A stretch of DNA of 64,000 nucleotides, taken from positions 26,626,001 through 26,690,000 of the forward strand of contig NC_073361.2 in the NCBI RefSeq assembly GCF_027580225.2. Reading direction: 5' to 3'. The position numbers and the translations under genes were made by a program. The notes beneath the pieces were generated by a model. It was not told the DNA's origin. It did not search any database and saw only the letters and a list, made by a program, of their open reading frames with translations. This DNA is from Misgurnus anguillicaudatus. Its lineage: Eukaryota; Chordata; Actinopteri; Cypriniformes; Cobitidae. The first letter of the stretch is position 1. Each line of letters begins with the position of its first letter. Shown here piece after piece: positions 9,093-52,493 of the stretch.

Positions 9093-9100
9093 TGTGGTAG

Positions 9101-15999: not shown

Positions 16000-16009
16000 T
16001 TTGTGATCA

Positions 16010-17508: not shown

Positions 17509-17632
17509 GAAATGTGATTCGCCCAAATCCATTACTACCACAGTCAAAGCTCTGCCTGTATTTCCCATTCTAGCCACCGGGGGCATTGACTTTGCTGAGT
17601 CTGGACTCTAGTTGCTCCACGCCGGGCCACAG
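17509..17632 (+). pseudogene. dpyd: DPYD exon 19 remnant
   Basis: A good acceptor (CTTTGCAG) precedes 17509 and a GTATGC donor follows 17632. The 3' half translates as ALPVFPILATGGIDFAESGL, near-identical to the FMN-binding barrel segment of DPYD, then hits TAG at 17609-17611, where the functional protein has Gln (CAG to TAG). The start keeps the split-Gly phase and an IRP tripeptide, but the frame shifts between the start and ALP. Length is 124 bases against 143 in human, a 19-base deficit that is not a multiple of three. Confidence 0.9.
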
Positions 17633-19371
17633 GTATGCGGTTTTATCATGGATAAGTTGTGTCGAATGTCTTTAGCAATCTTTTATATAAACCCCAGCTC
17701 AAGTCAAACTATGTTTATAGTTTCTTATAATTTTGGGGAGGTTGCATTTTGTTTACGCTTGATACACAATTACTTTTAATTGGTATTGTCAGCACTGCGT
17801 TTGCCACAGCTGTACACAAAGTTTTAATGAGAAAACTTTGTTGTAAATGAGATACAGTACAGTTAAGCATAATATTTGGATTGCAGATTGAACTGTTTCT
17901 AAACTCTCCATGTCAGGGTTTGCTTGTGTCTGGGGAGTAATCATTTAGAGAATCTGTATGCAAATTGAATTCCTATCTTTGAATAAATGCATTTACTATT
18001 TTTAAAGGTTGATTTAATGTTTCAGTAATGCCTTTTCCTTTCCTACCTGTTCGGTGCGAACACTTGGGATCTGAAGAGCTTTTTGCATTCAGAGATTTGT
18101 CCTGTGAGTTGATATGAAAATTTAATTACGGAATAAGTTGGGCTCTTGATAGAATCATAATGCTTTCAATTACAGATTCACTGCTTTAAAAAGGCCGTAA
18201 TTTGCGTTTCATCTAACACAATATAATCATTATTTGTAAGCTTTTTTCGGGGGTGATGAAAGGAAATAGATTTTCTTGTTAATATTTTGGGTTTAGTGGA
18301 GGATTAGAGCTATGGATTGTGAGGTTTGTAACAGGGAGATGAGTTTGTCGAGAGCACACGCTGTGGCGTGCGTTCTTTCAAATGCATCAAAGAGTTTGAC
18401 TGCTGAGAGGTCGGAAAAATAACCGCATGCAACGCGCATCCGCATGCATCGCTACCAAAGGCAAAAACACCGATTCTGATTACTGTTTCCTCCCAAGATG
18501 CTTTGCATTGTTTTATCCTTACGGATAAACTTGCACATCCACCCTTACCTTGTTTTTTCCCCGCACGCTTGTTGAATTCAGGTCAGGTCTGGGTCAATGG
18601 AGAAACGAAGCACCTTTGGATATGAAACGGGGTGGTTGAAGAATGCGCTGTAATGCGAACTGTTGCAATCAGCACTTCTTGTAGTTGGAACTGAAGAGAC
18701 ACTGAATGGATGAATCAGGCTTTTCAACACATATGAAACATCTCAGGGTAAACACGAACGCTGTAGGCACTCGTGCTATTGTTTCTCGGCAGACGCATTG
18801 ATTCTGCGCCACATCAAAAGTATTCTCCTAAGAACAAATAATATAATGAAGTCCATTCATATCCTGTATTGATTTCTCTGTGGATCGAATAGTGTTGAAC
18901 CTGCGGTTATTTGACTTTCCTTGGTTATTGAAGACAGGATATAGGATGTGTCTATACCGAAGCCTTCTTTATCTCATTAACTTGGAGAAAAACATAAATG
19001 TAGATATTCATTGATACCTGCGGTCTTTCAGCTGCAGTTTAAGTTTCTCATTAAGTCAAGCAAATGTGCACCAAAGAGACAAAATATTTCTTTGAAATGA
19101 TGCAGAGTTTGTTGGAGAACTGCAGATCTGTTATTAAAATCATAACTCAGTTATTACTACGGTTCAGACAGATTCATATCACACTTATGTTTGTTACAAC
19201 AGCAGTAGCTGTCACACTTTTAAAGAGATTCGATTAGTGAAGAACTTTAGTGGAATCTATTCGTTCAGACCATTTGTGTTTGTTTAAAACCCAATTCACA
19301 GATTCTTTTGAGTTATTTCGTAAAACATATGCTTTTTTGCATACCTAATTTTTAATTATATAGCAACCCAG
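17633..19371. other. Intron remnant, mostly repeat-poor
   Basis: No repeat ends or exon-like frames recognised. It lies between the exon 19 remnant and the next repeat. Confidence 0.45.
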
Positions 19372-19409
19372 GCTCCCTCGCCATACATACCTCTGCCTAC
19401 ATTTCTGCC

Positions 19410-19668
19410 AACAGGTGGCGCCTGTGTGTGGCGCCCAGCTTTGACTCAGGAAGTTGCTCAAATCCCTGTCGCGCCACAGAGCGTCACTCACATAGTTTAA
19501 CATTAAATAACCTTGGCTGCTAACGTATATATTTTGGATTTTGATGTAGACGCTATCTGACTAAGCTCGCGCTATTTAATGTGCACTTCCGGTGTACGAA
19601 ACCTCCGAGTTGTTTTAGATGTGAATCGACGCGGCGCTGAGCTGCGCATCCGGTGTGCAACGCCCTTA
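19410..19668. repeat. GC-rich MITE family D, copy 1 (degraded)
   Basis: Shares ACAGGTGGCGCCTG, GTGACTCAGGAAGTTG-like, GACGCTATCTGAC and GTGCACTTCCGGT blocks with the better preserved copy at 60140-60505. The termini are weaker here. Confidence 0.7.
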
Positions 19669-19984
19669 AGATGCGTTGCTCCGCTACATATCGCAGCATC
19701 TTTTAAAGGAATGTCCACTAGAGGTATTTGGTTTTTCTTTGTTCTGATGTCTGCAACAAATACCTTATGGAAAATAAAAATGTTTCGGTTTCAGAAGGTG
19801 AGGGGAGACGGCAAGCATGGAGCACCACTGTGCAAATTTAGCAGCCAGGCAAGAATCTGTAGCTCACATTGTATACATTCATTTTACAAATTTTAATGTC
19901 CAAGAGACTGAATAATAATCTCGTAAATTTTAATCCTTTAATTGTTCATATTTAAATGTTTATGTGCTGCTGCGCATCCATGTG

Positions 19985-20275
19985 TGTGATAAGCAAACAT
20001 GTGTTGTCATCGCATTTTACATTAAATAACAAAAACAATATTGCGCCATTGACTTTAGACCAGGTTTTAGTTGGTCAATGGAGTAGTCTAATATAAAATA
20101 GCAACGCGCCAACAATGCGCCTGAACAAACCTTGTTTTCAGACCAGAACGGCCATGGTCGCAAAACTGGGGCAAATGCATTTGCTATTTAAACAACGTTG
20201 CGCTGAACGTGAAAATGAGAATTGCGCCGGGTTGAAACTTGCAAATGGCACTTGCCATGGATTTATTGCATTTTG
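19985..20275. repeat. Dispersed DNA-transposon-like repeat
   Basis: GCGCCATTGACTTTAGACC, CAACGCGCCAACAATGCGCC and AATTGCGCCGGGTTGAAAC resemble a repeat common in zebrafish; this rests on memory. There is no second copy in the window. Confidence 0.4.
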
Positions 20276-20430
20276 CTGAAAAAATAATCAGTTTTTATAG
20301 TAAATCTTTAAAAATCAAATCATGGATTTGAATGTTTAATGTTATTATAACCTAAAGATGCTATGTGAAAGTTTGTAACAGAAAATAGTGGTTTTCATCT
20401 TCTAACTTTATTGCGTTTTGGAACCAAACT

Positions 20431-20702
20431 CTTTATTTGTAGCAATAGCCAAAAATACAATGTATGGGTCAAAATTGTAGATTTTTATGTAGAAATCATT
20501 AGGATATTATGTAAAGATTATGTTCCATGTAGATACTTTGTAAATTTCCTAATGTAAATATATCAAAACTTTTATTTTTGTGAGTGGATGCAGTTCTAAG
20601 GACTTCATTAGCTGTAAAGGCGATTTTATAAATATGTTTATTTTCTTGCACCCTCACATTCCAGATTTTCAAATAGTTGTATCTCGGCCAAAAATTGTCC
20701 TG
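20431..20702. repeat. DNA transposon family K, copy 2 (partial)
   Basis: Matches the interior of 15134-15999: TTTGTAGCAATAGCCAAAAA, CATTAGGATATTATGTAAAG, then CATTCCAGATTTTCAAATA. Both termini are missing. Confidence 0.7.
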
Positions 20703-21659
20703 TACTTTACATCATTTACACATTTGCTTTGTTCTTCGGTCACACTACATACACGTAGCTTCATTTGACTAAACAGGAGGACAAATAACACATACGGCTT
20801 TCACATTCCCTGAGTTTTTCTGACCATATGTGCTTCATTTATAACACAATCTTCTTGTAGATCGATAGTCTTTAGTTGATTTATTACTAAATACATTGGT
20901 TTACAATCACCCTGTAGGGGATCTGTGATCCTCATGGTGCGTATTGACTTTCGTGTGTTTTAGTGTAAAAGTAACTCACCTGTGTGTAGTGCCTGTCACT
21001 TTTACAAGAAAAAGAAACTGTCAAATGACTTTCATTTACTCAGAGCAATGATGTCTAACGTTTACACTCAGCGTTGTCGTAAAATAAAACGTCTGTTCCT
21101 TTAATAAGACCCTGTTATGATAGATTTTCGCCTGTCATAATGAGACGTAAAATAGCTGCATTTAGAGGCAGCTGTCGAAGATCAGGACGGCGTTTTCATT
21201 GGGAGGTCTTTGGGGGCAATGGAGCAATATTTCACTAATGGCAGAGCTGGTTCAATCTTAATGATCCACTCTGTAATTTGGGTCCTTCCCGGTGCATGTA
21301 AACAGTTGCGAACGGCAATAAAGAGACTGTCATCAGGTAGTAAAAATGACTTGTGGCCCAGAAAACATCAGGAATTTGTAATTTCGTTTCAAACGGCTAA
21401 ATGTTTCCATAGAGGGGTGAAAAACAAAACATTCGCCAACAACACAAAGTGTGCTTTTAATGAGCTGTGTGGTAAGTGTTTAACCCAGCAGGCACAAAAA
21501 CGTTTTCCAGAAAATTCACATTTGCATTTTGGTTGCCATTAGGTTAGGTCACAGATTAAATTTTCAGAAGCCTTAGAAACCACACCTCAAATTATAGATA
21601 AAAAACGGTAACCCAAACATGTACAATTTCTGTCATGTACGAGTTAAAAAGATTATCAG
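20703..21659. other. Stretch without recognised features
   Basis: Includes an open + strand frame at 21210-21542 (110 codons) with no recognised motifs. Its composition is not coding-like enough to call a gene. Confidence 0.4.
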
Positions 21660-21825
21660 TCCCAATATTTTAATGAAATGAACAATAAGTGAATAAATGC
21701 ATTAGCTAACATTCATTGTGCATTTAATAATGTTAACAAATACATTTGATTTTAGATCATTTTTAGTAAATGTTAAAGCTAACATGTACTAAGATTTATA
21801 AATACTGTAGAAGTATTGTTCTCTG
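21660..21825. repeat. MITE family M fragment
   Basis: AATAAATGCATTAGCTAACATTC and ACTAAGATTTATAAATACTG resemble the interior of the complete copy at 36529-36845. No terminal GGTAACACTTTAC is present. Confidence 0.5.
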
Positions 21826-22384
21826 TTAGTTTTAGCATAGCGTAGCACAATCCATTGAATCTGATTAGACCATTAGCATTGCGCTAAAACATAACCAAAG
21901 AGTTTCAATATTTTTCTTAAACTTGACTCTTCTGTAGTTACATCATGTACTAAGACTGACGGAAAATAAAAAGATGTGATTTTCTAGTTCGATATGTCTA
22001 GGGACTATACTCTTCATTCTGGCGTAATAATCAAGGACTTTGCTGCCGTAACATGGCTGCAGCAGGCGCAATGATATTATGCAGCAGCCGAAAATAGTTC
22101 CCTTGGTAACTTTCGATAGCAGGCCAGGGGACTATTTTCGGTCACTGCGAAATATAATTGCACCTCCAGCAGCCATGGTACGGCAGCAAAGTCCTTGATT
22201 TATAATGGTATGATTTTTTAACACAATGCTAATGGTCTAATCAGATTCAATGGATTATGCTAAGCTATGCTAAAAGTGGTCGGAGATTTGCTGAATGGAT
22301 TCCAAAACAGTAAAAATCAAATGTTTAACTCTAGGGGAGCTGAAAAAATGAGCATATTTTCAAAAAAAGTGGAGTGTCCCTTTA
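21826..22384. repeat. Palindromic MITE family N, copy 1 (5'-truncated)
   Basis: Contains facing inverted arms: CCATTGAATCTGATTAGACC on the left and its complement on the right, and CAAGGACTTTGCTGCCGTAA with its complement. It ends GTGGAGTGTCCCTTTAA. Other copies lie at 43871-44212 and 54016-54675. Confidence 0.8.
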
Positions 22385-22612
22385 AGGCTAGTCCTAGAAG
22401 AAACATGTTTTAGCAGGCTTAAAAGAAAATAACTTGCACTGACAGATGTTAAAATATACCAGTGCCATTGATTTGTGTCAAGATGCACACCAGTTACATC
22501 CTTTTCTAAGGCATGTTTAAAAAAAATGCTAGTGCTGGCTAAGCCTTGTATGTAAATCTAGGCTAACAGGTTTATTTTTAAGGTTTCAATGTTCGTTGGA
22601 AGTTTCCCCAAA
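22384..22612. repeat. Dispersed repeat, family H, copy 2
   Basis: Shares AGGCTAGTCCTAG, CTTGCACTGACAG and AAGATGCACACCAGTTAC blocks with the copies near 298 and 51464. It abuts the end of MITE N directly. Confidence 0.55.
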
Positions 22613-24621
22613 AAATGCTTGCCGATCACACCAAATGCATTTTTAAATTCTTGAAAAAGTAAGGGCACGTCACACTGCCTTTTTTTAGTCACTTTTAAAA
22701 AGTGAAAATGAAAATCAGTGGGTAACATCATTTATCAAAATATCTTTTTTGGGTTCGACAGAAACTAATACAGTTTTGAAACAGCATGAGGATGACTAAA
22801 TTATGACAGAATTTTCATTTTTTATCTACAGATCCCATGACATTGGCCCTTGGCGACAACCATGCAAAAAAACCCGAATCACTCCATTATATCCCAAGAC
22901 AAAAGGTTACTTCATGTAAAACACTCCCTACTGTATTCAGTAGTGCCTATATTCACTGGTTTGTGAAACGTTTTTACTTCCAGTGACTTCCATAAAGATG
23001 CTTATTTTACCTGAAGCGCTGCACGAAATATCAGTCGCTCATATTTTCCCTGTGCGTTGGTCAATCTGAACGAATCAAAAAGGACAAGGGCTTCATACAT
23101 AGTCATTGTAACATTTGGATGCCAAATCGAATCTCTTTGGGAGAGATGGTGCACAGCTAAATGCCAGAATTTTATTGCTGGAAATAAAAGAGCAGAGAGA
23201 GAGAGAGAGAAAGAATGAGGGTTGAGGGAGATGTAAGCAGGAACACTGAACCTAAAAGCGTCCGAGATCTCAAAAGCAGTTGAAATCAATGCACCGAGCA
23301 GATAAAAAGGGTCTGCGGTCTCAAATGCCTAGAAACTACTTAGAAATTCTCACTTCACATTTATTTCAGGACTCGGCCACATTAGCGCCAAATACTCGGG
23401 GTCAGGAAATCTTTGATGTGCTGAATCAAATAAAAAGCAATAATGGCTACCGACAAACAGAGCAACATGCCTTGGATTTCACAGGCTGTCGGATGTGGGA
23501 TCACTGTGTTTATTCTTTATTATCATAATGGTTTCTCAAATCACACATTTTCCTTCAATATGTTCATAAATAGGATGAAAACGCCCATGTTACGTATCTA
23601 TTCATGATTTGTCTTTGGTGAACAATAGGCGCCCGTCTTTTCTTCTGTTGGAGCCCCGATCTTTACACATGTGTGAAAAATGTTGTCATATTGACGCCCA
23701 TCGGCTCTGTTAACTGCAATAATTGCGATTCAATTGTTAAACTACGCGTCGAGCATCAGCAGGCGTGCCGTATTTGTTGATGTTAAATCGAGGTGAAATG
23801 TCATTGGACTGAATTAGACTCGTTCGACAAAGGAACCTTTGTTTGTTTGTTTGCCGAAAGTGATGTGTAGATGCGAACTGTGGCGGAACCAAGACGAGTA
23901 ACAAGTTTTATGCAAATGAGAATTCTAATGAAAACATATCTCCGAGAAATGAGCTAGCCAGAGTAAATTGCCTCCATTTTCTCAGCGTGAGCTTCGCCGT
24001 GTGGGATTTAATTTTTAAATATACAGATGACGCAGCACAGCCAATGACGCTTCAACCCCTTAAGAAATTCTTTGTTGTGACTGTGAGGAGAGAGAGACAT
24101 CAGATAGAGACTCGAAGAGAGGAGATATCCGAGGTTCAGCGTGTCAGAAATCAGCTGTGATCGTTTGCAGTGCGGCTGAATGCTAATCCCGGGAAGAAAG
24201 GCAGTTCTCGGCCCGACTCCGGTTGATGTCAGATCGGCGATAGCGCCGGGAGATAAGCGTGTCTTATCTGCTTCCTTAAGACGTGGTGCGACTGCCATCT
24301 GAAGTGCCGGAGACAAAGCTGGGGCTTCAAGCGATCTGTGCCGAAGCCATGCAGATCAGAGTCTACGCTTGAGAAGTGTAACAGAGTCAATGGAGAGGCT
24401 GACGTGAAGTTGACTAGTGAGCGTAAGCTCTGCTTTATCGGCCTTGCCTGTGCCTTACCGGTAATGAGGGAATGAGATTTCTCTTAAGGTCAATTGTATT
24501 CAGCTCTCCAGACTGTGTGCGTTTGATGCAGCGTCCAGACAGTTTTCTTTTGTAACTCTTTTGAAGAATGCCACGGGTTTTATCGCTGGATGTGCATATA
24601 TAAATATGCAATACACACACT
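22613..24621. other. Repeat-poor stretch, candidate conserved non-coding DNA
   Basis: Apart from a short GA run near 23196-23212, no repeat was recognised between about 22990 and 24620. The sequence is of higher complexity than its surroundings, with CAAATGAGAATTCTAATG-like TAAT motifs around 23910. No splice-bounded open frame was seen. Confidence 0.35.
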
Positions 24622-24791
24622 CACTCACCTGCCACTTTATAAGATACACCTGTTCAATTAATGGTTAACACAGATTGCTAATCAACCAAGCACATGGCAC
24701 TAACTCAATGCATTTAGGCATCTAAACGACTTGCTGAAGTTCAAACCGGGCATCAGAATGAGAAAGACAGGGGATTTACGTGACTTAGAGC

Positions 24792-26353
24792 CTTTTTACA
24801 TCTGGTCACTTCATGTGTTTTTTTTTCTGATCAGATTGCTATGTGTCAAGTATAAATGCCCCCGAAACCGTTTTTGAGACTGATTTAAATTCGATTGATT
24901 GAAGAGATAGTTCGGCCAAAAACAATATTAAACCCCTGATTTACTCACCCCAAAGCCTTCCGAGATGCATATGTCCATCGCTTTTCAGACAAACACATTT
25001 TCAGTTATTTTAGAAAATGTCTTATATCTTTAAGTTGCTAAACAGTACAGTTACAGGGTCCACTTCCTTCAAGTCAAAAAAATGTGCATATATCCTTCCC
25101 TAAAGAAATCCAAACAGCTCCAGGATGATAAACAAAGTTCTTCTGAGGGTAATCCGTGCGGTGTTGTTGTAGAAATATCAACATTTAAAACTTTATAAAC
25201 GAAAATAACGCGCATTCGGTAATGCCGCCATCTTAGTCCTGTCCGCATTCAAGATGAGAGCTTTCGCAACTTACGGAGGTTTCTCTGCTGCTGCTCTGTG
25301 CCCCCGCCCTCCGAATTTGTCATACGTCACTAAGAAAAGTGCGTCCACTACGCTGATACTCTCTACTGAATACAGAGGAGTCTAAGATGGCGGCGCTACT
25401 AGAAGCTAGTTATTTTCGTTTACAAAGTTTTACATGTGGATATTTCTACAACAAAACAGCGCAGATTACCCTCAGAAGGCCTTTGTTTTTCATCGTGAAG
25501 CCGTTTGGACTTATTTTGTGAAGGATAGATGCACATTTTTTGGACTTGAAGGACGTGGACCCCATAACTTCACATTTGATTAACTGAAAGATCTAAAACA
25601 TTTTCTAAAATAACTGAAAATGTGTTTGTCTGATGGACATATGCATCTCGGACGGCTTCGGGGTGAGTAAATCATGGGTTTAATATCATTTTTGGCCGAA
25701 CTATCTCTTTAAACAACTTCAGGAGGTGGTCTGGGACACATTTCAGCAAATTTAAATACTTTTGATTGATGAAGCTACATGTCAGCGCTTTACTCCTCCC
25801 AAACGTAAGCACGTCACCCCTACCTTAGCCAGGAGGCAGGTAAACAAACAAAGACGACGCGCTCGTTGCTTATGGAGTGATGACAGTGGTTAAAAAACTT
25901 TCTAGAACCGATAAAATTGGCTAACTTGATTATATGAACTCATTCACCGCAATTGACGAGTTATCTCGTCAATTAAGAGAAAACATTTGTATGAAATTTT
26001 TTTTATGGTTTTTATGGTAACCTGTAATACGGCGACTATCCACTAGCGATTATCCGCTCTTTTACACACTTTATAAAAAACTGAAGCAAAACATTATTTA
26101 TTAATTTTACACTCTGTTTATGTTTTGATCATCATTCTGAATCTGATCTTTAACAAAATTCCTTCACAAAAATGCAATTATTTCAGCTTTTTGCTGAAAA
26201 ATGGAAGACATTTTGTGAAACTTTTGTGAAAATCATAAAAATTGCTGGCGGGCAACTTTTAAAAAAAGGCTGGCGGGGAATGAGTTAAACAAAGAAATAA
26301 AACTTTTTCCCTATCCAATCAGAGAAAAGGCATAAAGTGACCAGGTGTAAAAG
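24792..26353. mobile_element. DNA transposon inserted in the Tc1-like gene
   Basis: Inverted ends: CTTTTTACATCTGGTCACTT at 24792 and, in reverse complement from 26353, CTTTTACACCTGGTCACTT. The similarity continues for about 40 bases (TTTTCTGAT). It contains the palindromic element at 24903-25709. No transposase was recognised. Confidence 0.75.
24903..25709. repeat. Long palindromic (foldback) MITE
   Basis: Begins AGAGATAGTTCGGCCAAAAA and ends with the inverse (TTGGCCGAACTATCTCT). Many internal blocks face each other, such as ACTGAAAATGTGTTTGTCTG and its complement, and TACCCTCAGAAG against CTTCTGAGGGTA. The centre near 25200-25400 is less matched and holds AAGATGGCGGCG. Confidence 0.85.
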
Positions 26354-26547
26354 TGGCATGGTTGTTGGTGCCAGACAGGCTGGTATGAGTACTTCAAAAA
26401 CTGATGATCTAATACTCAATATATTTTACAATAACAAATTGTTAATGCCTCTTATTTTAAGGTTACTTTTTACAGAAAAAAAACCTAAAATACTTTGTCC
26501 AGCACTGTTCACAGACATGAATAATATTTCAAATCATAATTTAGAAT

Positions 26548-26812
26548 AAAATTGTGTTTGTTAACAATTAGTTAATGCATTAGCTGACATGAACTAATTG
26601 AACAATACTTCTACAGCATTTATTAATCTTTGTTCATGTAAATTTTTGCATTTACAAATACATTTATAAAATCAAATGTTAACAGTAATGAAGACACTGC
26701 GAGCTAACACGAATAACTGTATTGACATTAACTAACATTAACAAGAATGCTGAAAAAACTATAATATTCATTGTTTGTTCATGTTGTTAATGCATTTACT
26801 AATGCAACCCTA
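26548..26812. repeat. MITE family M, partial copy
   Basis: AGCATTTATTAATCTTTGTT, ATTAACTAACATTAACAAG and GTTAATGCATTTACTAATG match the complete copy at 36529-36845. The terminal inverted repeats are lost. Confidence 0.65.
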
Positions 26813-27159
26813 TTTGTAGTGTTATTGTTATTTTTTACTAGATTCAGGGCATGTTTAGATGAAACAATTGTGCTAAAAGCGAAAACATTTTTATTAGCTT
26901 TGTTAAAAAAAATTCACATATGCACCACAACGTTTTCAAAACAGTTTACACAAATCTTTGAAAATTACAAAAAACTCTGAATTATGTCAGCCCAGTTGTT
27001 GGAAATGTTTCTTTGTAAAGAAACATTGCGCGCATCTGCACATACGCATTCTTCTACAGAGTGATAAATACAAACAATCAAGATGACGAAAGCATCAAGC
27101 TAGGTTGAAAGGTCAATGAGGTTGGTTTATTTCTACAGGTGACCCTGGATTATTACCAT

Positions 27160-27384
27160 GCCCCTAAAGTGACATTCGAGTGAAAAAAATCTAAAGTTTA
27201 GTTTCGCGTGCGCATGTGAAACTTTCTCCTGCGCACATGAAACTTTCGCTTTCAGGTGCGCACAGGATAGTTTCACGTGTGAGCTCGAAAGTTTCATGTG
27301 CGCACGCAAGCTAAACGCGATAGTTTTACGTGCGCACGCGAAACTAAACTTTATTTCATATTTGCTCCATGTCCCCTTAGGGGC
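27160..27384. repeat. CpG-rich palindromic MITE
   Basis: Flanked by GCCCCTAA (27160-27167) and TTAGGGGC (27377-27384). The interior is a series of facing GTGCGCA and GAAACTTTC motifs, giving an imperfect palindrome of about 225 bp. Confidence 0.7.
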
Positions 27385-27429
27385 TCCGTAGATTATAACA
27401 TTGTTGGATAAGTAAGAAATAATTGTTGA

Positions 27430-27955
27430 TGGGCCATTGAATTATTAGGAAATAATGAACACCCAAGGTGGTTACACCACTGCTGGGCAATATGTAAAGA
27501 ATAATTGACAATGGGCGTCGTGCCAAATTACCACCTTGGGTGTGCATTATGTTAGGAATAATTGACAACGGGCCATTGAATTATAAGAAAATAATGCACA
27601 CCAAGGTGGTAATGCGGCACGACGTGAAGCAGAGTACCATGGTAACCACAAACCACCTATTTTAAAGACATTTAAAAGGTTAGGTGTACGGTTTACAGAA
27701 AAATAATCATTACCCATGGAACATTTCTCAACCAATCAGAATAAAGCATTCAACAGGCCCATGGTATATTTTTGAATAATTCAAAGGAGCGGAGTCAGTT
27801 ATTCCCCTTATACCACGGTTACAACGAACATTGCTCTGGTGGTTATTTTAAGACATTTGAGAGGTCAGGTGTACGTTTATCTAAAAATAATGCATACCCA
27901 TGGAACGTTTCTCAACCAATCAGAGTAGAGCATTCAACAGACCTGTGATATAAGC
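27430..27955. repeat. Composite repeat with inverted and direct copies
   Basis: CACCCAAGGTGGT (near 27461) faces ACCACCTTGGGTG (near 27531). Further on, a block with AGGTGTACG, ACCCATGGAAC, CTCAACCAATCAGA and GCATTCAACAG occurs twice in direct order (about 27652-27760 and 27840-27955). Confidence 0.65.
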
Positions 27956-28031
27956 ATTAATAAACTCAGTATCTTTAGCAGCACAACACATTGTAGATTT
28001 GGATGGTGGTCTTTTAACATGATCCAGCAAG

Positions 28032-28196
28032 CAAACTCACGACTTCACTGTGATTGAAGATAACTGCTGTGGTCTTAAAGCCCTGATTTACCTAAAAAGC
28101 TTCAAAGAGCTCGAGGGATGGAACGGCCAGTCACCCCTTACAGCCCGCCAGCAGAAGGGTAAACCTTTGGCCATGCTAAAGGAGCTCAAAAAACTG
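28032..28196 (+). pseudogene. dpyd: DPYD exon 20 remnant
   Basis: Translates as [20 protein letters not shown] and continues through a [11 protein letters not shown] segment to [14 protein letters not shown], closely matching the end of the DPYD barrel domain. The frame is open, but both borders are off. The expected six residues before this block are replaced by sequence with an in-frame TGA (28020-28022) or are cut off by AG dinucleotides at 28026 or 28030. At the expected donor the sequence reads CTGAGATAATT with no GT nearby, as if GT had been deleted, and TAA follows at 28200. The exon could not be spliced normally as it stands. Confidence 0.88.
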
Positions 28197-28199
28197 AGA

Positions 28200-32228: not shown

Positions 32229-32374
32229 GCAATAATCCCCGCAAAGCAGTGGGGTTACAGTGCATTTTATAACAGCTAAGGGGGTTTAGGCACTGCGCTT
32301 CGTGTCGTGCCTAACAATGCCCCTTAGCTGTTATAAAATACACTGGTAACCCACTGCTTTGCGGGGCTTATTGC
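32229..32374. repeat. Palindromic MITE
   Basis: Arms 32229-32284 and 32320-32374 are inverted copies (for example GCAAAGCAGTGGGGTTACAG against CTGGTAACCCACTGCTTTGC), separated by a loop of about 35 bases. Confidence 0.85.
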
Positions 32375-33228: not shown

Positions 33229-33291
33229 TAAAAGATTTTCTCCAGAAGGGTGATCAAGGCCATGATCTTTATTCCAAGACATAAATGTACC

Positions 33292-36845: not shown

Positions 36846-36861
36846 TGATTTTTTACAGTGC

Positions 36862-36970: not shown

Positions 36971-36976
36971 GGACAT

Positions 36977-41378: not shown

Positions 41379-41703
41379 GACTTTTTAGCTGACATCTGAA
41401 GGAGATGTAAAGCACAGAATCAGTTTGTTTTGCTGAGCATCATATTTATGGGAGTGAAAATGTGTAGTAGATGTCTCTTGAAAACCCTGTAAATTCAGTC
41501 AGTCAGATGGCAACTAAGAAACTTTCACCATGTGTTTCCCAAAAAAATCCAATTTTGTTTGAATTATGTATCGGACGTTAAGTCATGTGCCATGTCTGAA
41601 GCAGAGACTGTACTGCTTTTTATATATTTAAGGTCTTGAGATAAATATTTCTATGTTAAATAAGTTTACTAGCACATTTTGAATTTTTTTGTAAATTAAA
41701 TTA

Positions 41704-42062
41704 CTAGTGCTGGGCAAAGATTAATCGCGACCAATCGCACACAAAACAAAAGTGATCCTTCGCACAATATATGAGTGTGTGCTGTGTGTAATTATTATCC
41801 ATATATTAATACACACACATTCATGTATGTATTAAAGAAACATTTACATGTGTTTATATATTAATTCATATTTGAATATATTCTATATGATACATAATTT
41901 TTTTAAATTGTATATAAATAAAAAAAATCTGAAATGAATATATGTATGTGTGTGTGGTTAAATATACTTAATAATTACACACAGTACACACACATATACC
42001 ATGCAAAAAAAGACCTGTATTCTGTATGCGATCAATCGCGATCAATCCCTGCCCAGCACTAG
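41704..42062. repeat. MITE with CTAGTGCTGGGCA ends
   Basis: A perfect 13-bp inverted repeat, CTAGTGCTGGGCA, bounds 359 bp. The inner ends have facing ATCGCGA motifs. The centre is a TATA/CA-rich near-palindrome. Confidence 0.85.
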
Positions 42063-43870
42063 AAATTACGTTTACATTTCTGCATTGTTAACCAAAGGGA
42101 CTTGCTAGGTACACATTTTACCTTTCTTGGGATCGAACCCACATCCCTTTCCCGCTGCTAATTGAATGCTCTACAGAATGATCTGCAGAAACATGCACAT
42201 TCAAAATAATTACAATTAATTGCATGGATCGACATTTATTAAGAAATTAAATCATTCCAAGATTCCAGTAATATTATTCAGGCTGATGAGTGAATTATTA
42301 AATAAGTATATGTGTATATAAAGAGGCCACTGGCCTACAATCCACGCCAATCCATTTTGCCAAATTGCTCAGTTGGTGGAAAAAAAACATTTATGTTCCT
42401 TTCTTTTCATGACACCTCATTATTATTATTTAACTGTTAAAGTCCCCAGTAATAATAATTTCTTTGTAATAATGTGTATAAAATAACTTATGTGAACTGT
42501 CACAAAATGTATTTGTACTCAGCTGTTGCTTACAAATTTAAGAAAGCAAGTGGGGAGCAAAGTCTTATGTGTGTTTATTTTCGACCAAACAAATACTTCC
42601 AATTAGGAGCGTGTGTATGATAGCTGAAGACACAACACCAGCACATTGGGTGGTGGACGCTACCCGGTACTTTCATTAAAGGACGCACAGCTTGACGACT
42701 CTGCAACTTTAGCGGACCGCTAAGTTATTACACAACAAACAAAAGCGAGTGTGATGTAGGGCATGCTGGGAGTTTAAAGTCTAAAGCTTTGCTTTAATGA
42801 GCTCCATAGAAAGTCTTCCTCTGTTTGAGTCGTGCCCAGGGCCGGGGTCTTACAGTTTCCACATTTCCCAGGACGTCACCTCTCTCCCTGCGGTTTACGT
42901 GGGTGCACCCGAGATCCGCATGCGCTTTTTAATGCTCTGCAGTGTCAGGACGAATCAGGGAAGATAAAACATTGTGGCTTGCGAAGAGACTCTGTGCTGT
43001 CCTAGGTTTAAATTAATGAGCGCTGAACACTCTTGAGATAAATTTAGGTTTTCATATTTAATTATATCCTGCCGCAGAGGTTGACTGTGGATGAAACGCA
43101 CAACTATTGTGCTCCAGGCTTGTTTATGAATTTCTTTACGGCCTTTATTTTTGACTCGTAAGCTGATCGCTTTTCTTAATAGCAATGAGTTAAAAGCAAT
43201 AAGAGTTGGCTCGTATAATAGAAGAGACTTTGGGCTTGAAATGCCACACTGACTGGATGCCTGGTGGAATATGCAGATCGTCATTCGCCTGCGCTTTGAA
43301 CCTGTGTTCTTCTTTCATGTACTGTAGGCACTATCCTTGTACCTGTCTGTCAAACCCATGTCCTGACACCTGCTCGCTGTACCTGTGGAAATAAAAGAAG
43401 TCGAAGATTAACATCTTTTGATCAGCAATCGCACAGAGATCTCTGACGAGGAGTCTGACGCTAAATGAATGTTTTATTTTGTCTGTGTGATGAAGTCAAG
43501 TGAAACATTTAAATGCACCGTCTCACTTGCTGCTACCTTGAACTGCACTCTGTGTAAAAAAGAAATGGCATGAAAACTGCTTTTAATGGACATTTCATCT
43601 TTAATATATAATTTAAAACTGCGTGAAGAGTAGAAATGTTCTGTTCTATCCAAGTTCATTTGTTAAAATGAAAAAGGAGATTTCAGCCAAAATGTTATGA
43701 TTTGGCAAGCACTTTTATTCAAATCAACATTAAACACATGACATTGATGATGTTGTTGGCACTGTTTTACCTCTTAAGATACAGGAACACTGCACTTACT
43801 GTACAGTGTAAAAAAATGTAGAATGTTAAGTTAAACCACTTCAATTTTTCAACTTATCACAGGTCAAAAC
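42063..43870. other. Mostly repeat-poor stretch
   Basis: A tRNA-SINE-like minus-strand scrap (GGGATCGAACCCACATCC) lies near 42131-42150. From about 42540 to 43440 there is no recognised repeat and no exon-like frame. Confidence 0.35.
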
Positions 43871-44212
43871 TTAAAGGGATACTCCACTTTTTTGAAAATA
43901 TTCTAATTTTGCTCTCATTCTGGCGTAATAATCAAGGATTTTTTGCTGCTGTAACAAGGCTGCAGGAGGCACAATGATATTACGCAGCAGCCGAAAATAG
44001 TCCCCTTAGTAACTTTCAATAGCAGGGGACTATTTTCGGGAATTGCGTAATATCATTGCGCCTCCCCCACCAATGTTACGGCCATTCCTAGCCATATCTT
44101 CCTAGAAAATCGCAACTTTTAATTTTCTTTAATTTTGCGTACAAAGTCGGTGTTAGTACACAATGTCACTACAGAAGAGTCAAGTTTTAAATAGGAAAAA
44201 TATCGAAACTTT
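43871..44212. repeat. Palindromic MITE family N, copy 2 (3'-truncated)
   Basis: Starts TTAAAGGGATACTCCACTTT, then has the inverted CAAGGATTTTTTGCTGCTG and ACGGCCATTCCTAGCC regions seen in the other copies. The right terminus is absent. Confidence 0.75.
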
Positions 44213-44261
44213 TTTTTGGGGAAAAATATCAAAACAGTATAGAAGTAGGACTGTGTGTTAA

Positions 44262-45086
44262 ATGGGTGATTCTTGCGAAATTAGACTTATGAGGTGTCAT
44301 GAAACATTTTGATTTAAAAAAGTTAATGCAAAGTAAGAGTATCAAAATAAGAAGCATTACAAACATTTCTTCCTGTACTATTTTGCACATGATTTCAAAT
44401 GACATCATACAAACCAATGTTGTTGTTTTTTCCGCATTTATGGGGAAAAGTTTCATTACCGCAACGTGTCCATTACTGGATTTAACATGGAAATATTTAT
44501 AATTAAAAAATCTAAAAAATAAAAAGCTTCAGTCCATGTTATACTATAAACATTTACAGTAAAGAAACATGGTATTTGGTGATCAATGGTAAATGTAGAG
44601 ACAATAATAAGGAATATAAATGTGTCCAAGAAAAAAATTATCATCCTCCGCAACAATTTTCAATCATTGTTTAAGCCCTCAAGGAACTAACATTTAAAAT
44701 AGTTGGAAGGGACATAATTGACTGTGACACTCAAGATGGCTACCAAGTAAGCAATTCTTATTTTTTCTCTCCAGATAAAAGTTGAAATTTTGCTTGTCAT
44801 AGCACCTAGACAACTTTTTAGTTCTCATTACCGAAACATTAGTTTGTAAATGCATATATTTAATATAATATCATGTTGCGGTAATGATCATTTTTGATAA
44901 TGATAATCTAAAAAATGTAAATAATTATATAGGAAATATGTTTTAAATCCTCTAAAAATAATGGTTGTAGTAAGTTCAGACCTTAATCTTATATGTGCAA
45001 AAAAATGGGCTTTAAGGGCTTTTCAACAATTCTGATGCTGGACACGGATTTCGTGAGAATGGACACTGGATTTCGTTACAATCACC
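44262..45086. repeat. Dispersed repeat, family X, copy 2
   Basis: Direct copy of 38985-39726, extended at the left by GTGATTCTTGCGAAATTAG, which is partly mirrored by GATTTCGTTACAATCAC at the right end. This suggests inverted termini of a DNA element. Confidence 0.8.
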
Positions 45087-45097
45087 CAAATGTATTT

Positions 45098-45370
45098 TTA
45101 AAGGGGACATAGCATGTAAATCTTAAAAAATTGTCTCCCTGGTGCTTCTATCAACCTAGAGAATGTAAAAAAAGAACAACCAAGTAACTTAGTTTAGGTA
45201 AACCATTCTCTGCAAGCATATAAAAAATAGGTAATTGAAATCTGGCAATTTGAACATGTTATAATACATTATCTATATGGTATTTTGAGCTGGAACTTCA
45301 CATACGTACTCTGGGGACATCAAAGGTTTATTTTACATTTTAAGAAAATCTCGTGAAATGTCCCCTTTAA
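45098..45370. repeat. Dispersed repeat, family J, copy 3 (internally deleted)
   Basis: TTAAAGGGGACATAGCATG at the left and GAAATGTCCCCTTTAA at the right, lacking the middle block with GATGTCAGAAGGGG. Confidence 0.8.
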
Positions 45371-47304
45371 GTTCTTCAAAAGCCAAACTAACCTGGTTTT
45401 TGAGGGGGCTGTTTACATCAGATTTTCTCGAGACACATCAAAACTGAAGTTCCTCTGTTAGAGAAGCTAGTATAAATCCGTTTCAGTGATGAATATTGAT
45501 CACCCTCTCTGTTCCGCATGATGCCAGCCTGCTGTGACCGCCGCGTTGACTTCCCTGTAGTGTTTCTCTCTCTGTGTGTGTGTGCAGATAAATTAGTTTG
45601 AATGCATCGGCTTGTGTGTGTTCACACAGCTGCCATGTCATGTCGTATTGTCACAGCTGCCCGTCCCGCTCACACGCTATTCACAAACAGGCATGCAGAG
45701 CAGTGCCGTGGCCCCGTCCCCAGCAGGCCGAAGACAAACTGCCTGCCAAGCGCGCTCCTGTATCCGGAGTTAGCGGCGTGTGGAATTCTTTCATTCCGAA
45801 CTGTCCCGAATATGGTAATCTGGGGAAATCACAGCATACAGGTATTTCTCCACTTAAGCACGCGGCAGGGATGCGGCCCCTCACTTTGCCTTGCGCTGTC
45901 GGGGCAATTGGCCCTTCCCGCACGCTCCGCGCCAGCTGCATGTGACGGTAATGCGGTGGTTCTGTGAAGCGTGCATTGAATTACACTTTCTTGCCTGGCA
46001 TTGTGGGAAACGGAAGGAAAAGAGCAGTGGGGAGGGACGTGGACTTGGAGGGGGGTTTGAGTTGATTGTGAAGCATTAAGAGCGTTAATGTCACATTTGC
46101 ATGGGTTATTGTATACGGTCATATTGGAAATGGTGGTTGGGGGCCTGAGCAATGTAGTTATAAAAAACATTATAAAAAATTTAATTAAATTATACAAATT
46201 GCCAAAGTCAATGTCAACCCACAAAGGGACAAAAAGGGACGAGCCCAGGCTGGGTTGTTTTAACACCAAATGCATGGTTGTTTTAACCCAACGGTTGGGC
46301 TTGTCCCTTTTTGACCCAATGCCGACTTCTTATAATTTTTATAGCAATCATAAATCATTGAAATATGTGAAATATATGAAGCACCTTTATTTTAAGAGTG
46401 TATGCGTATGTGAACTGTCTTTGAAATTCAGCCGTAAAATGCTGCCCAGTCTCAATACTTGGACCTTCATACCAACGAAAGCGCTTTTAAGATAGTGTGA
46501 ATTGGCTGAGATCGGGTTTTCTTTCGACACACTGCTCTTGAATATATAAGGGGGAGCGTCTGCCACCCACAATTCCGAGCGAGCGAGCAATCCCTGTTCA
46601 TCGCCACGGTAACGTCCTAATCCTGGATGCCAAATGAATATTTTTGCAAATATATTGCATGATTTTACAGTACATGGCCTTCAAAAGATACAAAAGTGCT
46701 AAACCAAGGACAATAATCTTTCAGAAATCATTCAGCGTGACCCACATCAGTTTCTGTTTTAGTTTTTTGCACAAGCGATTTCAACAACACTCGCAGATGC
46801 TTTGGGGACCACGGATGTTATATCGATTGCGCGTGCTTGCCAATAAGTTTTCTTTCTTTTAACATTAAAACGTCGCAAAACGCGACAAACCTGAAGCCTC
46901 ACCTCCACACCGAATGAAAGCAGTTAAGCCCAGAGCAGATTAAACTTTTAACCGCATGTTGACAGAAGGGATCTCAATAATTTTCAAGGATGAAAAAGTA
47001 TAGTCACACCCAAGAGAACGGTCTGGGTCTTTAATGCCTTTGTTTTTCTCTCTGGTGCATGCGTGTATTTGTGTTGATGTCTACACTCTTTAAAATGAAA
47101 GTGCTTATAATTTCTTTACATCGATGCCATAAAAGAACCATTTGTGAATATTTTATTTTACAGGGGAACATAAAAGGATAAGCATGCTTCAAAATTGTAT
47201 ATAATTAAGATGGGAAATATGTTAAAGAATAGCAAATATCACCAATATAAAACCTGGGATCTGTTTTGGAGATCACACATTTTTCACATGTATAGTGTGA
47301 ACCA
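45371..47304. other. Repeat-poor stretch with a GC-richer island
   Basis: 45530-45960 is GC-richer than its surroundings and produces open frames on both strands, none with recognised motifs. A small repeat with facing ACCCAACGGTTGGG and GGGACAAAAAGGGAC motifs lies at 46197-46318. Confidence 0.35.
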
Positions 47305-48030
47305 GAGTCCTGCAACGGGTCGGGTACCCACATAAAAGTGGCCAAAACGGGTGGATTGTGACATTCCTAAAATTCACGGTCGGGATGCGGGCAGATAATA
47401 AACTCCTTGCGGGCAGGTAGTAGCATGGATGAAAAATATGTGCAATATTTGTATGTCTAAATTACCATTACACATATGCAACAACGATGACATTTGACCC
47501 ATCACATCACCGACAGTGCGATTTTTGTTGATGCTTCTCGTAACCTAGTTGGAGCAAGCGTTGCAGGAGTAGCTATGGATGAAGTAAAAGTGAAGTTGGC
47601 AAGTGGAGTATATAAAATTGTTGACAACGAGTCTTTAAAGGCAAAATCGGATGTGTGAAGAAAGTGTTGTGTAATACGAAGTCGTATTTTTTCTTCTTTT
47701 TTTCATTAATAGGTCTATTTGCGTAGTTAGGTTCCATAGCCTATTTAGGGGCTGATGGTAGGCTTCTTGAATGCCGCAAAACAAAGCACACTTTAGCCTG
47801 TTTCATTAGCCCATTTATGACATTGTTGTTATGTTGAGAGAGATGCGAGATAAAAATTAAAGCACTTTAATTGGAATGATTTATCGTGTGTGATGTATCG
47901 CGGGCACGGATCGGGTAACGGGCCAAATATTAACGGGTCTAGGCGGGTGCGGATTTAATTTTGATAGTATCGCGGATGACAAGTCTGAACTTTGCGGGTA
48001 CGGGCGGGTCTCCAAAAATGGACTTGTGCA
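47305..48030. repeat. CGGGT-rich DNA element
   Basis: AGTCCTGCAACGGGTCGGG near the left and GCGGGTACGGGCGGGTCTCC near the right, in inverted relation to a GGACTTGTGCAG end, suggest a small TIR element. Boundaries are approximate. Confidence 0.5.
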
Positions 48031-48204
48031 GCAAAAATGGATTATAAATTTACAATATATAAATTTATATATATATATTTATATATGTGTGTGTGTAGCA
48101 GGTGGGGTTTTTCGTATTTAAGCGAACCGCGAGTTGAAACTACTCAGCATTTTAGTCTAGAATGAAGGCTGCGAAATTTCCCATAATTTTGGGTCATTTG
48201 GAGC

Positions 48205-48615
48205 TTAAAGGGGTCATAGCGTGAAAATTTGACACTTTCCATGTTTAAGTGCTAAAGTTGTGTCCCCAGTGCTTCTATCAACCTAGAAAACATGAAAAAG
48301 ATCAACCCAGTAACCATTTTTTGCAAGCATGTGCCATTTAGTGCAATGAAAAAGACAGTGAGAAAAAATTATTGACAGCACAATTGAGTTTCAATTTCAA
48401 CAAACCACCATCATTGTGATCAGTGTTTGCATTTCATCAGCTCATTTGCATTTTAAAGGACGCACATTTTTTCTCTGACCTAGAAATAGGAATTTAAACA
48501 TGCTATAATAAATTATCTTTGGGGTATTTACCCTAAAACTTCACATATGCACTCTGGGGACACCAAAGACTTATTTTACATCTTTTAAACAAATCTCATA
48601 ATATGACCCCTTTAA
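48205..48615. repeat. Dispersed repeat, family J, copy 4 (variant ends)
   Basis: TTAAAGGGGTCATAGCGTG and ATATGACCCCTTTAA replace the GGGGACAT ends of the other copies. The interior blocks CCCCAGTGCTTCTATCAACC and CTCTGGGGACACCAAAG are shared. Confidence 0.8.
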
Positions 48616-49297
48616 GATCTACGAAATGGCATCATTAAACCATTTTTGCATTTATTTGACACCACTTTTGTTTGTGGGAGTTCTATGTAAAAGTTAATGG
48701 ATTCATCAAACACCCCCAATTAAGTTCAACAAGGTGCTAAATGCTTAGAAATTGTAATGATTTTGTATTGTGTTCTTGTCTTGTTCATTGTTCAAGTTTT
48801 TTATTTTGAAGTTCTCATTTTTATGTCTTTTATTTTGATATTATGTTTTGGCATGTTTGTCTCTTGTTTCCCTATTCTCAGATGTGTCATGTTCTGATTG
48901 GTTCCTTGTCTATATATATAACCCTCATGTTGTCTTTGTCAAGCTTTGTTTATCTGTACGGCCTTCTGTTTGGTAAGTTCATGCCATGCCGTGTTTTTAT
49001 TTTTGTGTTCATGTCACACTGTAACAAATCTAACTTCAAAATGTTCTTTCGACAAAAATAATTAAGTAACTTGAACAAAGATTTTTTTTTTTGAAGGGGG
49101 TAAATTCATTATTTTGTGTTCACTGAATGAAAAAATTTCAGCTAACATACATTATTTTGTTGACTGGACTTAGGCACTTGGGTTCTAAATTGCTGGCCTC
49201 TCAGTGGATTATGTTACAGAAATAATGCTTCACCTTTTTCGAATCATTGTCATTTTATGCAACACGTCTTCCTTTATTCTTCTTTCACACTATCTAG
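48616..49297. other. Intron-like stretch before DPYD exon 21 remnant
   Basis: T-rich sequence near 48725-49020, with TATATATATAACCC and AAGCTTTGT motifs, faintly resembles an LTR, but no matching partner or flanking duplication was found. Confidence 0.3.
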
Positions 49298-49433
49298 ACT
49301 CTGCCCAATTTTGACCCATACCTGTAAGAAAAGAGGGAAGCTATAGCAAACCACAGAGAGTGAGAGACCGTAAAGACAGTGGGCTTGCCGCCGAGAGGTT
49401 TTACACTCCCATCACACCTGTAAAACAGTTAAG
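49298..49433 (+). pseudogene. dpyd: DPYD exon 21 remnant
   Basis: A good acceptor (pyrimidine tract then CTATCTAG) precedes 49298, in the phase expected for human exon 21. It opens TLPNFDPYL, matching the DPYD segment KLPSFGPYL, but TAA follows at once (49325-49327), then EKREAIA in the same frame and TGA at 49361-49363. Further similarity (RFYTPITPVK) is in another frame before GTACAAG. Length is 136 bases against 144 in human, so the frame is shifted. The segment normally leads into the C-terminal ferredoxin-like domain. Confidence 0.85.
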
Positions 49434-49530
49434 GTACAAGTTCGCCTAACGTTTATTTATTCAGGCTGAAAAAATATAGTGTGCTCCGAATGACCTTTAA
49501 CCTTATTGTCAAATTCTCATGTTTGCTCAG

Positions 49531-49671
49531 GATGTAATAGCAAAAGCCCTGGAACACATTGGCACCTATAAGGACCTAAATATCCAGGAGCAAGTGCAGG
49601 TTCTGATCGATCCAGAGATGTGCATCAACTGTGGGAAATGTTACATGACCTGTAATGATGCCGGATACCAG
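49531..49671 (+). pseudogene. dpyd: DPYD exon 22, intact exon of a broken gene
   Basis: 141 bases, 47 codons, phase 0 on both sides, the exact size of human exon 22. Acceptor TTTGCTCAG and donor GTGCTT are usable. It encodes [11 protein letters not shown] to CNDAGYQ and holds one complete 4Fe-4S motif, [11 protein letters not shown] (CX2CX2CX3C), in the C-terminal domain that passes electrons toward the FMN site. No lesion was seen. It is listed with the pseudogene because its neighbours are broken; it is probably a chance survivor, though a rare use of this exon cannot be excluded. Confidence 0.92.
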
Positions 49672-49929
49672 GTGCTTACCTCCATCTGCCCACACACGCA
49701 GAGACACATGCACCGCTTTCTGTTTGTTCCCACATAAACCAATACATCCCAGCCTCTGGCCATCACCTTATGGCTCCTGACCTCTCCGTGGCTTACCGGG
49801 GTAAACTAGTGGCTTTATAAACAAAAACAGGCGTCTGGAACTCAACCACTAGATATTTCTCAGCTCTAGTGAGCACGCTGATAACAATAGTTTAGGTTAA
49901 CTAAAGGATGAAAAGATGCCACAGAGAGG

Positions 49930-50160
49930 TTAGACATGTGGCCTAGAGGTTAACACGCTTGTTTCATGTTTTGTTGTTGTGCTCATGTGGTCCCTGTGAG
50001 TTTAAATCTGACTCGTATGTAAGCAATAAGGTACGTATGCAGTGCGCCCCCAGACCACTAGGGCCCCCGTTGCTCTTAATATCATGCGGCGCAACACATG
50101 GCTTGTGACATGAGCAATTCGAAAGCAGAACAAGTCTGACCTCACGGTACTTTGATGTCA
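49930..50160 (+). mobile_element. tRNA-derived SINE-like sequence
   Basis: TGTGGCCTAGAGGTTAAC resembles an A-box and GTGAGTTTAAATCTG a degenerate B-box; the tail is not clearly defined. Confidence 0.45.
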
Positions 50161-50165
50161 TATGA

Positions 50166-50616
50166 CCAGTTTTGGGGGTAACGCATTACAAGTAACATGC
50201 ATTACGTAATAATATTACTTTTCTGAAGTAACAAGTAAAGTAACCCATTACTTTTTAAATGTACACATTAATATGAGTTCCTTTTTTAAAAAAGTAATGC
50301 AAGTTTAATTAAAAAAAATCCTGTGTGGGAACAGTTTGAATCAGAAACTGAGATGGCAGGCCAGAGCTCGATTTTTTTTTTTTTTTTGATGAAACATGCA
50401 ATTTCTGAATGCAGAACTTTCTAGTTATAAAAAACACCTGCAAGGCCTGAAACAGATCAACCCTCAGCCAAGAAAAAGTAACGCAAAAGTAACTAAAAAG
50501 TAACGTAAGCATTACTTTCCATTAAATGTAACTAAGTAACACAATTAGTTACTTTTTTTGGGAGTAACTTAATATTGTAATGCATTACTTTTAAATGTAA
50601 CTTTCCCCAACACTGC
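50166..50616. repeat. Palindromic MITE with GTAACGCATTAC motifs
   Basis: The left end CAGTTTTGGGGGTAACGC faces the right end TAACTTTCCCCAACACTG. The interior repeats AAAGTAAC and GTTACTTT many times in both orientations. A poly-T run lies at 50371-50387. Confidence 0.8.
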
Positions 50617-51463
50617 ATATGACAATCGCTCTGTGCATGCGCTTTGACATGCGTCTTTAATATAATGGGTGTGGTTTTCTAACAAAGTGCATGACTGCAT
50701 GATCATATTAACGTATTATTTACTTCCATGCAAGCCACAAATTAAAGCTTGGCTTTCGCACAATGAATAACATTACATAAACATGACCAACAAAAAAAAT
50801 TTTCACCACAGGGGGACTTTAAGTGCACAAATTAATAAAATATGCGACACAATAGCGCCTCAAACTGGCAGGTTAAAGACGACTCATTAACACGCCTGAC
50901 TCTAATGAATATTAACTCTTAAAACGACGATGTCCCTTCACACTTCAGCCCACAGAAGAACAGCGAGTGGGACCGCTCTGATGGTTATATTAAAGTATTC
51001 ATCTCACCCTCTCCGGTTAAATAAATGTCCCTTGCAATTTATCATAAGGGTATTGATGAAGTAGAGTGCGGGTTTTATCAAAGCAGTAATTGTTCACGGT
51101 GACGCTCATTGTCTGTGAGTGGATTTCTAAGAGGGATTACACATTATTAGCGCTTTCTAATATAGAGGTACATTCATCAACATAATGTGTCATGATCAAA
51201 TGGATGGCCATCAAGCAATACAAAACAGCACCGTCCCACACAGGCAGCAATTCAGTTACGTTTAAAAAGATGCCGTAATCGATGCCGCCTGCCATAACAA
51301 TCTTTCTACTGTACTAATACAATATTATACGAATGGCGTAATGGCCTTGTGTAACGTTTTGTTTTGGTGCATGCAGCGCATCTTCTGCTTGGTTATTTCG
51401 TAGCATATTTTGCTGTTGTCCAAAAAACTGGGCCCCAGATCTTTAAAAATATCAGACAGTGCT
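50617..51463. other. Intron-like stretch between DPYD exons 22 and 23
   Basis: No repeat or exon recognised; 51000-51380 is repeat-poor. Confidence 0.4.
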
Positions 51464-52030
51464 TATCTTAGTCCCAGTTTGAGCTGCCTTTATTAAAAAA
51501 CATATTGCACTGACATATCTTAACATATTTCAGTGACATTGTTTTGTCTCAAGATGCACACCAGTATTGTTTATTGTATGTTTATAAAAACTGCTTAAAG
51601 GTGCAATGTGTAAATTTTAGCGGCATCTAGTGGTGAGATTGCAAATTGCAACTCAGTCCACTGCTCACCCCTTGCTTATGAAACGCATAGAGAAGCTACG
51701 GTAGCCGACACAGGACAAACATGTCTACATTAGAGGCAACTTATTATACAAAGTTTGTCCGTTAAGGGCTTCTGTAGAAACATGGCGGCACAAAAGGGCG
51801 ACTTATATGTAAGGGGACCCTCTGTGTATGTAGATAAAAATGTCTCATTATAAGGTAATAAAAACATAACGGTTCATTGTGAAAGGTCTTTATACACCCC
51901 TGATAATATAGTTTTGTATATTATTTTGCATTTTTGTAAGAGATCCTTCGAAAAATTACACACTGCACCTTTAAATGTCCAAATATAACTAAGGCTAGTC
52001 CTGGATCAATCTGTCCGGAAAACCGCCCCA
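51464..52030. repeat. Dispersed repeat, family H, copy 3, interrupted
   Basis: CATATTGCACTGACATATC and CAAGATGCACACCAGTA on the left and CTAAGGCTAGTCCTGG, CCGGAAAACCGCCCC on the right match the other H copies. The middle is occupied by the element at 51595-51974. Confidence 0.65.
51595..51974. mobile_element. MITE with TTAAAGGTGCA ends, nested
   Basis: TTAAAGGTGCAATGTGTAA at the left and, inverted, TTAAAGGTGCAGTGTGTAA at the right (18 of 19). It sits inside a family H repeat. The interior has no frame. Confidence 0.85.
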
Positions 52031-52337
52031 AAAACATCTGGATCACATTTTATCAGAAAAAGCACCCAAATGTGATTCTTATAATACAGTAATTTACTGT
52101 AATGCAGTTTTGTATATGTTTAAGGAATTTAACATGCGTTTTACAGTAATCAGAATTTTTATACAGACTGTCCACAAAAGGCTTTTCAAAATTCCCACAT
52201 TTGTGTGTTTTCAATTCGAGGCTTTCGATAGAATAAGCACACAGTATTTGTTGCATTTGTACTGTTTAACGTCCAGCCATAGCAGGTTGTCGCCCGCGGT
52301 GAGAATATAATGATTGTAATGTCTCTGTGTCTGGCAG

Positions 52338-52493
52338 GCCATCGTCTTTGACCCTGAGACTCGTCTGCCTGTGATTCAGGACAGCTGTACCGGCTGCGCT
52401 CTCCGTGTCTCGGCGTCTGCCCCATCATCGACTGCATCGAGATCACCTTACGTGCCAAGACGAGGACTTCCACAAGTCGTGAATCATGTATGA
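52338..52493 (+). pseudogene. dpyd: DPYD terminal exon (23) remnant
   Basis: Follows GTGTCTGGCAG. The frame starts AIVFDPETRLPVIQDSCTGC, as in DPYD, then leaves the true frame: a 2-base gain near 52416 puts CPIIDCIEI in another frame, and a loss of about 14 bases restores the first frame for PYVPRRGLP and the stop at 52491-52493. The product read straight through loses two of the four cysteines of the second CX2CX2CX3C cluster, one by a Cys-to-Arg (CGT) change and one by the shift. Length is 51 codons against 56 in human. AATAAA at 52497-52502 directly after the stop may be chance. Confidence 0.88.

Follow-up and report, generated by a model that had tools for sequence, protein, structure and literature searches.

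Remnants of the duplicated pyrimidine-catabolism gene dpyda, very probably dead in its ancestral place, in the loach Misgurnus anguillicaudatus

The decay of one of two teleost gene duplicates is common, and unprocessed (duplicated) pseudogenes stemming from the teleost genome duplication form a known class. Among the genes of pyrimidine breakdown, dpyd, the gene for its first step, exists as two old teleost duplicates, dpyda and dpydb, and the closest described counterparts of the copy treated here are the dpyda proteins of cyprinids (Carassius gibelio, P0121; Sinocyclocheilus, P0122 and P0124; Chanodichthys, P0123). Here, we analyzed a window of 64,000 nucleotides (nt) from the loach Misgurnus anguillicaudatus (assembly GCF_027580225.2, contig NC_073361.2, here C25:26626001-26690000), which very probably holds the 3′ end of a dpyda that died at its ancestral position. 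The C25 copy is like cyprinid dpyda in its lineage, its rare residues, and its exon order; however, the cyprinid sequences are predicted proteins without such damage, while the C25 copy is interrupted by stops and frame breaks and has lost some of its splice sites. It also resembles the unprocessed pseudogenes of the teleost duplication, with introns kept, its ancestral place retained, and a living partner elsewhere in the genome, and it shows no difference in kind from them; it is a well-documented yet ordinary dead duplicate. A survey of the literature on fish dpyd duplicates and pseudogenes, which took in few subscription journals, showed no description of such a pseudogene in fish among the records listed.

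Searching the window with DPYD protein (tblastn) recovered five exon remnants, colinear and all on the forward strand at 17509..52493 (Table 1; coordinates without a contig name are window positions, and those on C25 or C2 are genome positions). These are exons 19–23 in the human DPYD numbering (exons 1–23). Four dpyd queries from fish matched exons 19, 20, 22, and 23 at E = 7e-23 to 2e-8, and the start of exon 21 alone was weak (E from 8e-4 with the best query to 0.85 with Danio); a null control of 51 queries (50 shuffled, one reversed) gave 16 matches at E<=1, the best at 0.099. Lesions were called from a frameshift-aware alignment to cyprinid dpyda together with a check of the splice dinucleotides, and the deletion sizes given for the window exons are estimates taken from the protein references. 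Exon 19 has a ~10-nt deletion near its start that shifts the frame, a TAG at 17609-17611, and a ~9-nt in-frame deletion before the kept donor. Exon 20 lacks an AG in 28000-28022 and a GT in 28190-28215, and where the reference has a Cys codon it reads TGA in register (28020-28022); the genome-wide search likewise lists a TGA in this frame, and the aligned rest (28023-28190) is open. Exon 21 bears a TAA (49325-49327) and a frame break near 49361, and measures 136 nt versus 147 in cyprinid dpyda. Exon 22 retains its 4Fe-4S Cys motif, with one of 25 near-invariant residues replaced. In exon 23, an insertion of 2 nt near 52404 and a deletion of about 14 nt near 52446, inside and after a 4Fe-4S motif, throw ~14 codons, the second 4Fe-4S motif among them, out of frame, and TGA (52491) now stands in place of the last Cys codon.

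Table 1. Positions of the dpyda remnants, the element inserted among them, and the neighboring and partner loci.
Feature	Position	Strand	Remarks
dpyda exon 19 remnant, codons ~767-814	17509..17632	+	AG acceptor and GT donor both kept
dpyda exon 20 remnant, codons ~815-874	28017..28196	+	both splice sites gone
dpyda exon 21 remnant	49298..49433	+	AG and GT kept
dpyda exon 22, 47 codons open	49531..49671	+	AG present; GT donor in weak context
dpyda exon 23 remnant	52338..52493	+	two indels; last Cys codon now TGA
Introns 19-22 (10.4 kb, 21.1 kb, 97 b, 2.7 kb) of the dead gene	within 17633..52337	+	
Part of intron 18	1..17508	+	holds the LTR retrotransposon
LTR (long terminal repeat) retrotransposon	2048-8289		in intron 18; LTR pair and open frame
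dpyda exon 18	C25:26609093-26609215		beyond the window
ptbp2	C25:26720012-26729463	-	42 kb past dpyda exon 23, convergent
Second dpyd locus (dpydb)	C2:29415004-29555530		from the genome-wide search
mir-137	C2:29386990-29387060		28 kb upstream of dpydb exon 2; sole genome match (66/403186 candidates scored)

Given that introns are retained between the exon remnants, the gene is unprocessed. A sequence-only reading of the window had described five DPYD exons in one order and on one strand within these limits, four of them damaged, as an unprocessed pseudogene recording the death of a duplicated pyrimidine-catabolism gene in a fish. We arrived at the same account, with exons 19, 20, 21, and 23 hit and exon 22 open, the dead gene identified as dpyda by phylogeny, and its partner, dpydb, located on C2. 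The gene is, however, larger than those five exons, with remnants of 19 of the 23 exons (2, 3, 5, 6, 7, 9, 10, and 12–23; exon 1 not sought) lying in order over 213 kb (C25:26465312-26678493). Homology to DPYD thus runs along the protein, beyond a single domain. Exons 4, 8, and 11 gave no match, either in the 200 kb from C25:26486001 or in the genome-wide search, and no dpyd exon was found in window positions 1..17508, while 35 of 39 planted mock exons (~62% identity, no indels) were recovered. A stop or frame break was noted in 13 of the 19 exons: in the window, the four named above, and upstream of it, frame breaks in exons 5, 6, 7, 9, 10, 12, and 13 and stops in exons 10, 12, 14, and 16. 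Exon 5 aligns over 28 of 55 residues, exon 2 has a two-codon in-frame gap, and exons 3, 15, 17, 18, and 22 contain neither stop nor frame break. Altogether, 13 frame breaks and 6 stops fall within 750 aligned residues, a count that does not include the TGA codons in exons 20 and 23.

The assignment to dpyda rests on trees and on diagnostic residues. The C-terminal part joins the four cyprinid dpyda proteins in a tree of 46 rows (support 100/98), and a full-length tree of 28 rows places the C25 copy with cyprinid dpyda (100/100). Constraining the C25 copy to group with cypriniform dpydb was rejected using the window exons (p=0.0143). At the columns where cyprinid dpyda and cypriniform dpydb differ, 13 residues are of the dpyda type, one is of the dpydb type, and nine are neither, and the C25 copy shares 5 of the 13 residues that are rare outside cyprinid dpyda. 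Over the aligned C-terminal part, it is 70.5% identical to both P0121 and P0123, whereas the other three cyprinid proteins are 89–93% identical to P0123.

The replacement of conserved residues sets the C25 copy apart from functional proteins, with 71 of 385 near-invariant residues replaced (18%) versus a maximum of 4.4% (18/407) and a median of 0.7% among 26 functional proteins. In the part of the C2 copy compared, 7 of 187 were replaced, an upper bound given that the first stretch of this row is partly intron. In the five window exons alone, 21 of 121 invariant and 49 of 116 variable sites were replaced. We also noted that the damage is spread evenly: 17 exons do not differ in how often invariant sites are replaced (p=0.62), and the lesion counts of exons 19–23 (3, 3, 3, 0, and 3, set by hand) do not depart from uniform (p=0.61), a uniform decay leaving at least one of five exons lesion-free in 33% of draws. 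Since both counts fit uniform decay, the graded exon decay of the sequence-only reading was dropped. In a simulation on the window codons, in which transitions were given an assumed weight of 2, ~0.1 substitution per site reproduces the observed replacement level and serves as our estimate of the neutral change since the death of the gene; at this level exon 22 stays stop-free in 57% of runs.

These figures bear on whether the remnant still acts as a non-coding RNA or as a regulatory landscape, for example via its open exons. Exons 15, 17, 18, and 22 are open with their splice dinucleotides in place, as such a role would have it; yet open exons are expected by chance, near-invariant residues are replaced evenly among exons, and exon 22 compared with the remaining window exons gives p=0.07, so we regard a residual role as highly unlikely.

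Several observations weigh against the picture of a cyprinid-like dpyda decaying freely. The AG and GT dinucleotides are visible at the four open exons just named. Replacements are more frequent at variable sites (101/364) than at invariant ones (71/385, p=0.003), so some of the divergence accrued under selection or before the split. Constraining the C25 copy to group with characiphysan dpyda was not rejected on the window exons alone (p=0.144), and at the columns where cyprinid and characiphysan dpyda differ, 10 residues are cyprinid, 4 characiphysan, and 4 other. A tree of 18 rows sets the C25 copy beside Carassius and Sinocyclocheilus (90/91, unstarred), a position at odds with a loach, and its branch is long (0.45-0.91), making its exact position among cyprinids unsure. 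Finally, the genome-wide search (1,120,239,901 bases, 1.12 Gb, in 61 contigs) lists nothing for C25 exons 5, 7, 9, 16, and 21 or for C2 exon 15; given that weak or short exons are missed in this way, the search could overlook a third copy in an advanced state of decay, though not, we expect, an intact one.

That search, made with dpyda, gave 34 matches (42 candidates, all scored) confined to two loci, and it bears on a possible tandem origin. Database names reading "tandem duplicate 1" imply that tandem copies exist in some fish, and the C25 copy could be a decayed member of such a set (dpyda.2 or dpyda.3) rather than the main dpyda. However, no further dpyda match was found in the genome, and the locus is the one adjoining ptbp2 on C25, making a tandem origin most improbable.

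The second of the two loci, which answers the question of other dpyd loci in the assembly, is dpydb on C2. Its 22 exons that were read (exon 1 not sought) comprise 1006 codons with zero stops or frame breaks and end in TAA, and 922 of the 1006 residues are shared with dpyd from Triplophysa rosa, a loach; the stops listed at C2 by the genome-wide search sit in intron flanks. In the 18-row tree, Triplophysa is the partner of the C2 copy (98/97) within cypriniform dpydb (100/99), as expected of a loach, and in the 28-row tree, which used half of the C2 gene, the corresponding values are 88/87 and 100/100. The C2 and C25 copies belong to the same enzyme family and share the same ptbp2 neighbor in the same orientation, but the C2 copy is the other duplicate, is open in the exons read, and has mir-137 upstream. 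A functional dpyd paralogue is therefore very probably present on C2, judging from its open frame. The alternative raised in the sequence-only reading, a true loss of the enzyme through the death of a sole dpyd gene, could draw on the dead copy adjoining ptbp2, the ancestral neighbor; however, ptbp2 and mir-137 also adjoin dpydb, which is open to its stop codon in the 22 exons read, leaving that loss unsupported and hardly conceivable.

An intact gene whose lesions are errors of sequencing or assembly is of equally negligible probability, given the breadth of the damage (multi-base deletions included, and exon 20 without both splice sites) and the 18% of near-invariant residues replaced. The same assembly holds the 1006 clean codons of dpydb and an uninterrupted 4449-nt frame in the retrotransposon of intron 18, so errors of sequencing would account poorly for the lesions.

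In the sequence of events we propose, dpydb would have sustained uracil and thymine breakdown, and because it kept this pathway going, dpyda would have been freed from selection. Stops and indels may then have built up in dpyda at a neutral rate that was more or less uniform, and the gene would yield no working enzyme.

The surroundings of dpyda speak to where it died. The downstream neighbor on C25 is ptbp2, whose best match in the PDB is PTBP2 (146 bits versus 129 for PTBP1); one of its exons has five matches in the genome, the nearest relative being at C2 29576740 (95% identical at the protein level). On C2, ptbp2 lies on the reverse strand, 21 kb past dpydb, and is likewise convergent. The convergent ptbp2 42 kb downstream of dpyda indicates that the gene was still at its ancestral site when it died, and a processed retrocopy was rejected on this neighbor and on the introns kept between exons. 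The matching dpyd-ptbp2 blocks on C25 and C2 fit the expectation for an old block duplication.

Synteny with both ptbp2 and mir-137 had been suggested as a check; ptbp2 was found as expected, but mir-137 was matched beside the C2 copy only. The mature mir-137 sequence, allowing up to 2 mismatches, occurs once in the genome, at the C2 site, and no mir-137 was detected on C25 by this means or by the genome search (66/403186 candidates scored). The C25 block may have lost dpyda and mir-137 together while keeping ptbp2, leaving the ancient mir-137/dpyd unit on C2 only, and a shared regulatory landscape may link the two, although we consider this doubtful.

The LTR retrotransposon in intron 18 carries a frame (2986-7437, 1483 amino acids) in which SCAN, protease, and integrase are followed by reverse transcriptase and RNase H; an integrase ahead of the reverse transcriptase is the arrangement of Gmr1-like Gypsy elements. 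Its relatives, in the best 120 of 180 matches, are 36–71% identical, and the named ones among the matches listed are mostly from fish, with a few from sponges and other invertebrates; those listed include Coilia grayii (61%), Pimephales promelas (67% over a part), and a top record at 71%. The SCAN domain is described as having its origin in the Gag of a Gypsy/Ty3 element of the Gmr1-like kind (PMC3424704). The two LTRs are 97.0% identical over 890 columns, or ~0.015 substitution per lineage. Set against the simulated level for the dpyda exons, and given a shared neutral clock, dpyda would have been dead for about six times as long as the element has been resident.

Other repeats were noted in the window. 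Intron 20 holds a direct repeat pair (39040-39610 and 44358-44932; ~570 bases, 86% identical), and three inverted pairs (13591-14126/37064-37608, 21830-22385/54016-54556, and 24895-25236/25382-25716; 340-560 bases, 76–84% identity) are probably copies of mobile elements. The window gave no match to Rfam at the gathering score, and no Pfam family was found for six of its other open reading frames at E<=1e-3 or for ten more at E<=0.01.

Collectively, the locus offers a clean case in which one old duplicate of the first pyrimidine-breakdown gene very probably died where it stood and the other kept an open frame, and the younger insertion in an intron of the dead gene provides a relative clock. 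If mir-137 and dpyda were lost jointly, the pair would form a test of linked retention. For the annotation of this genome, the dpyd match on C25 must not be taken for a second working enzyme.

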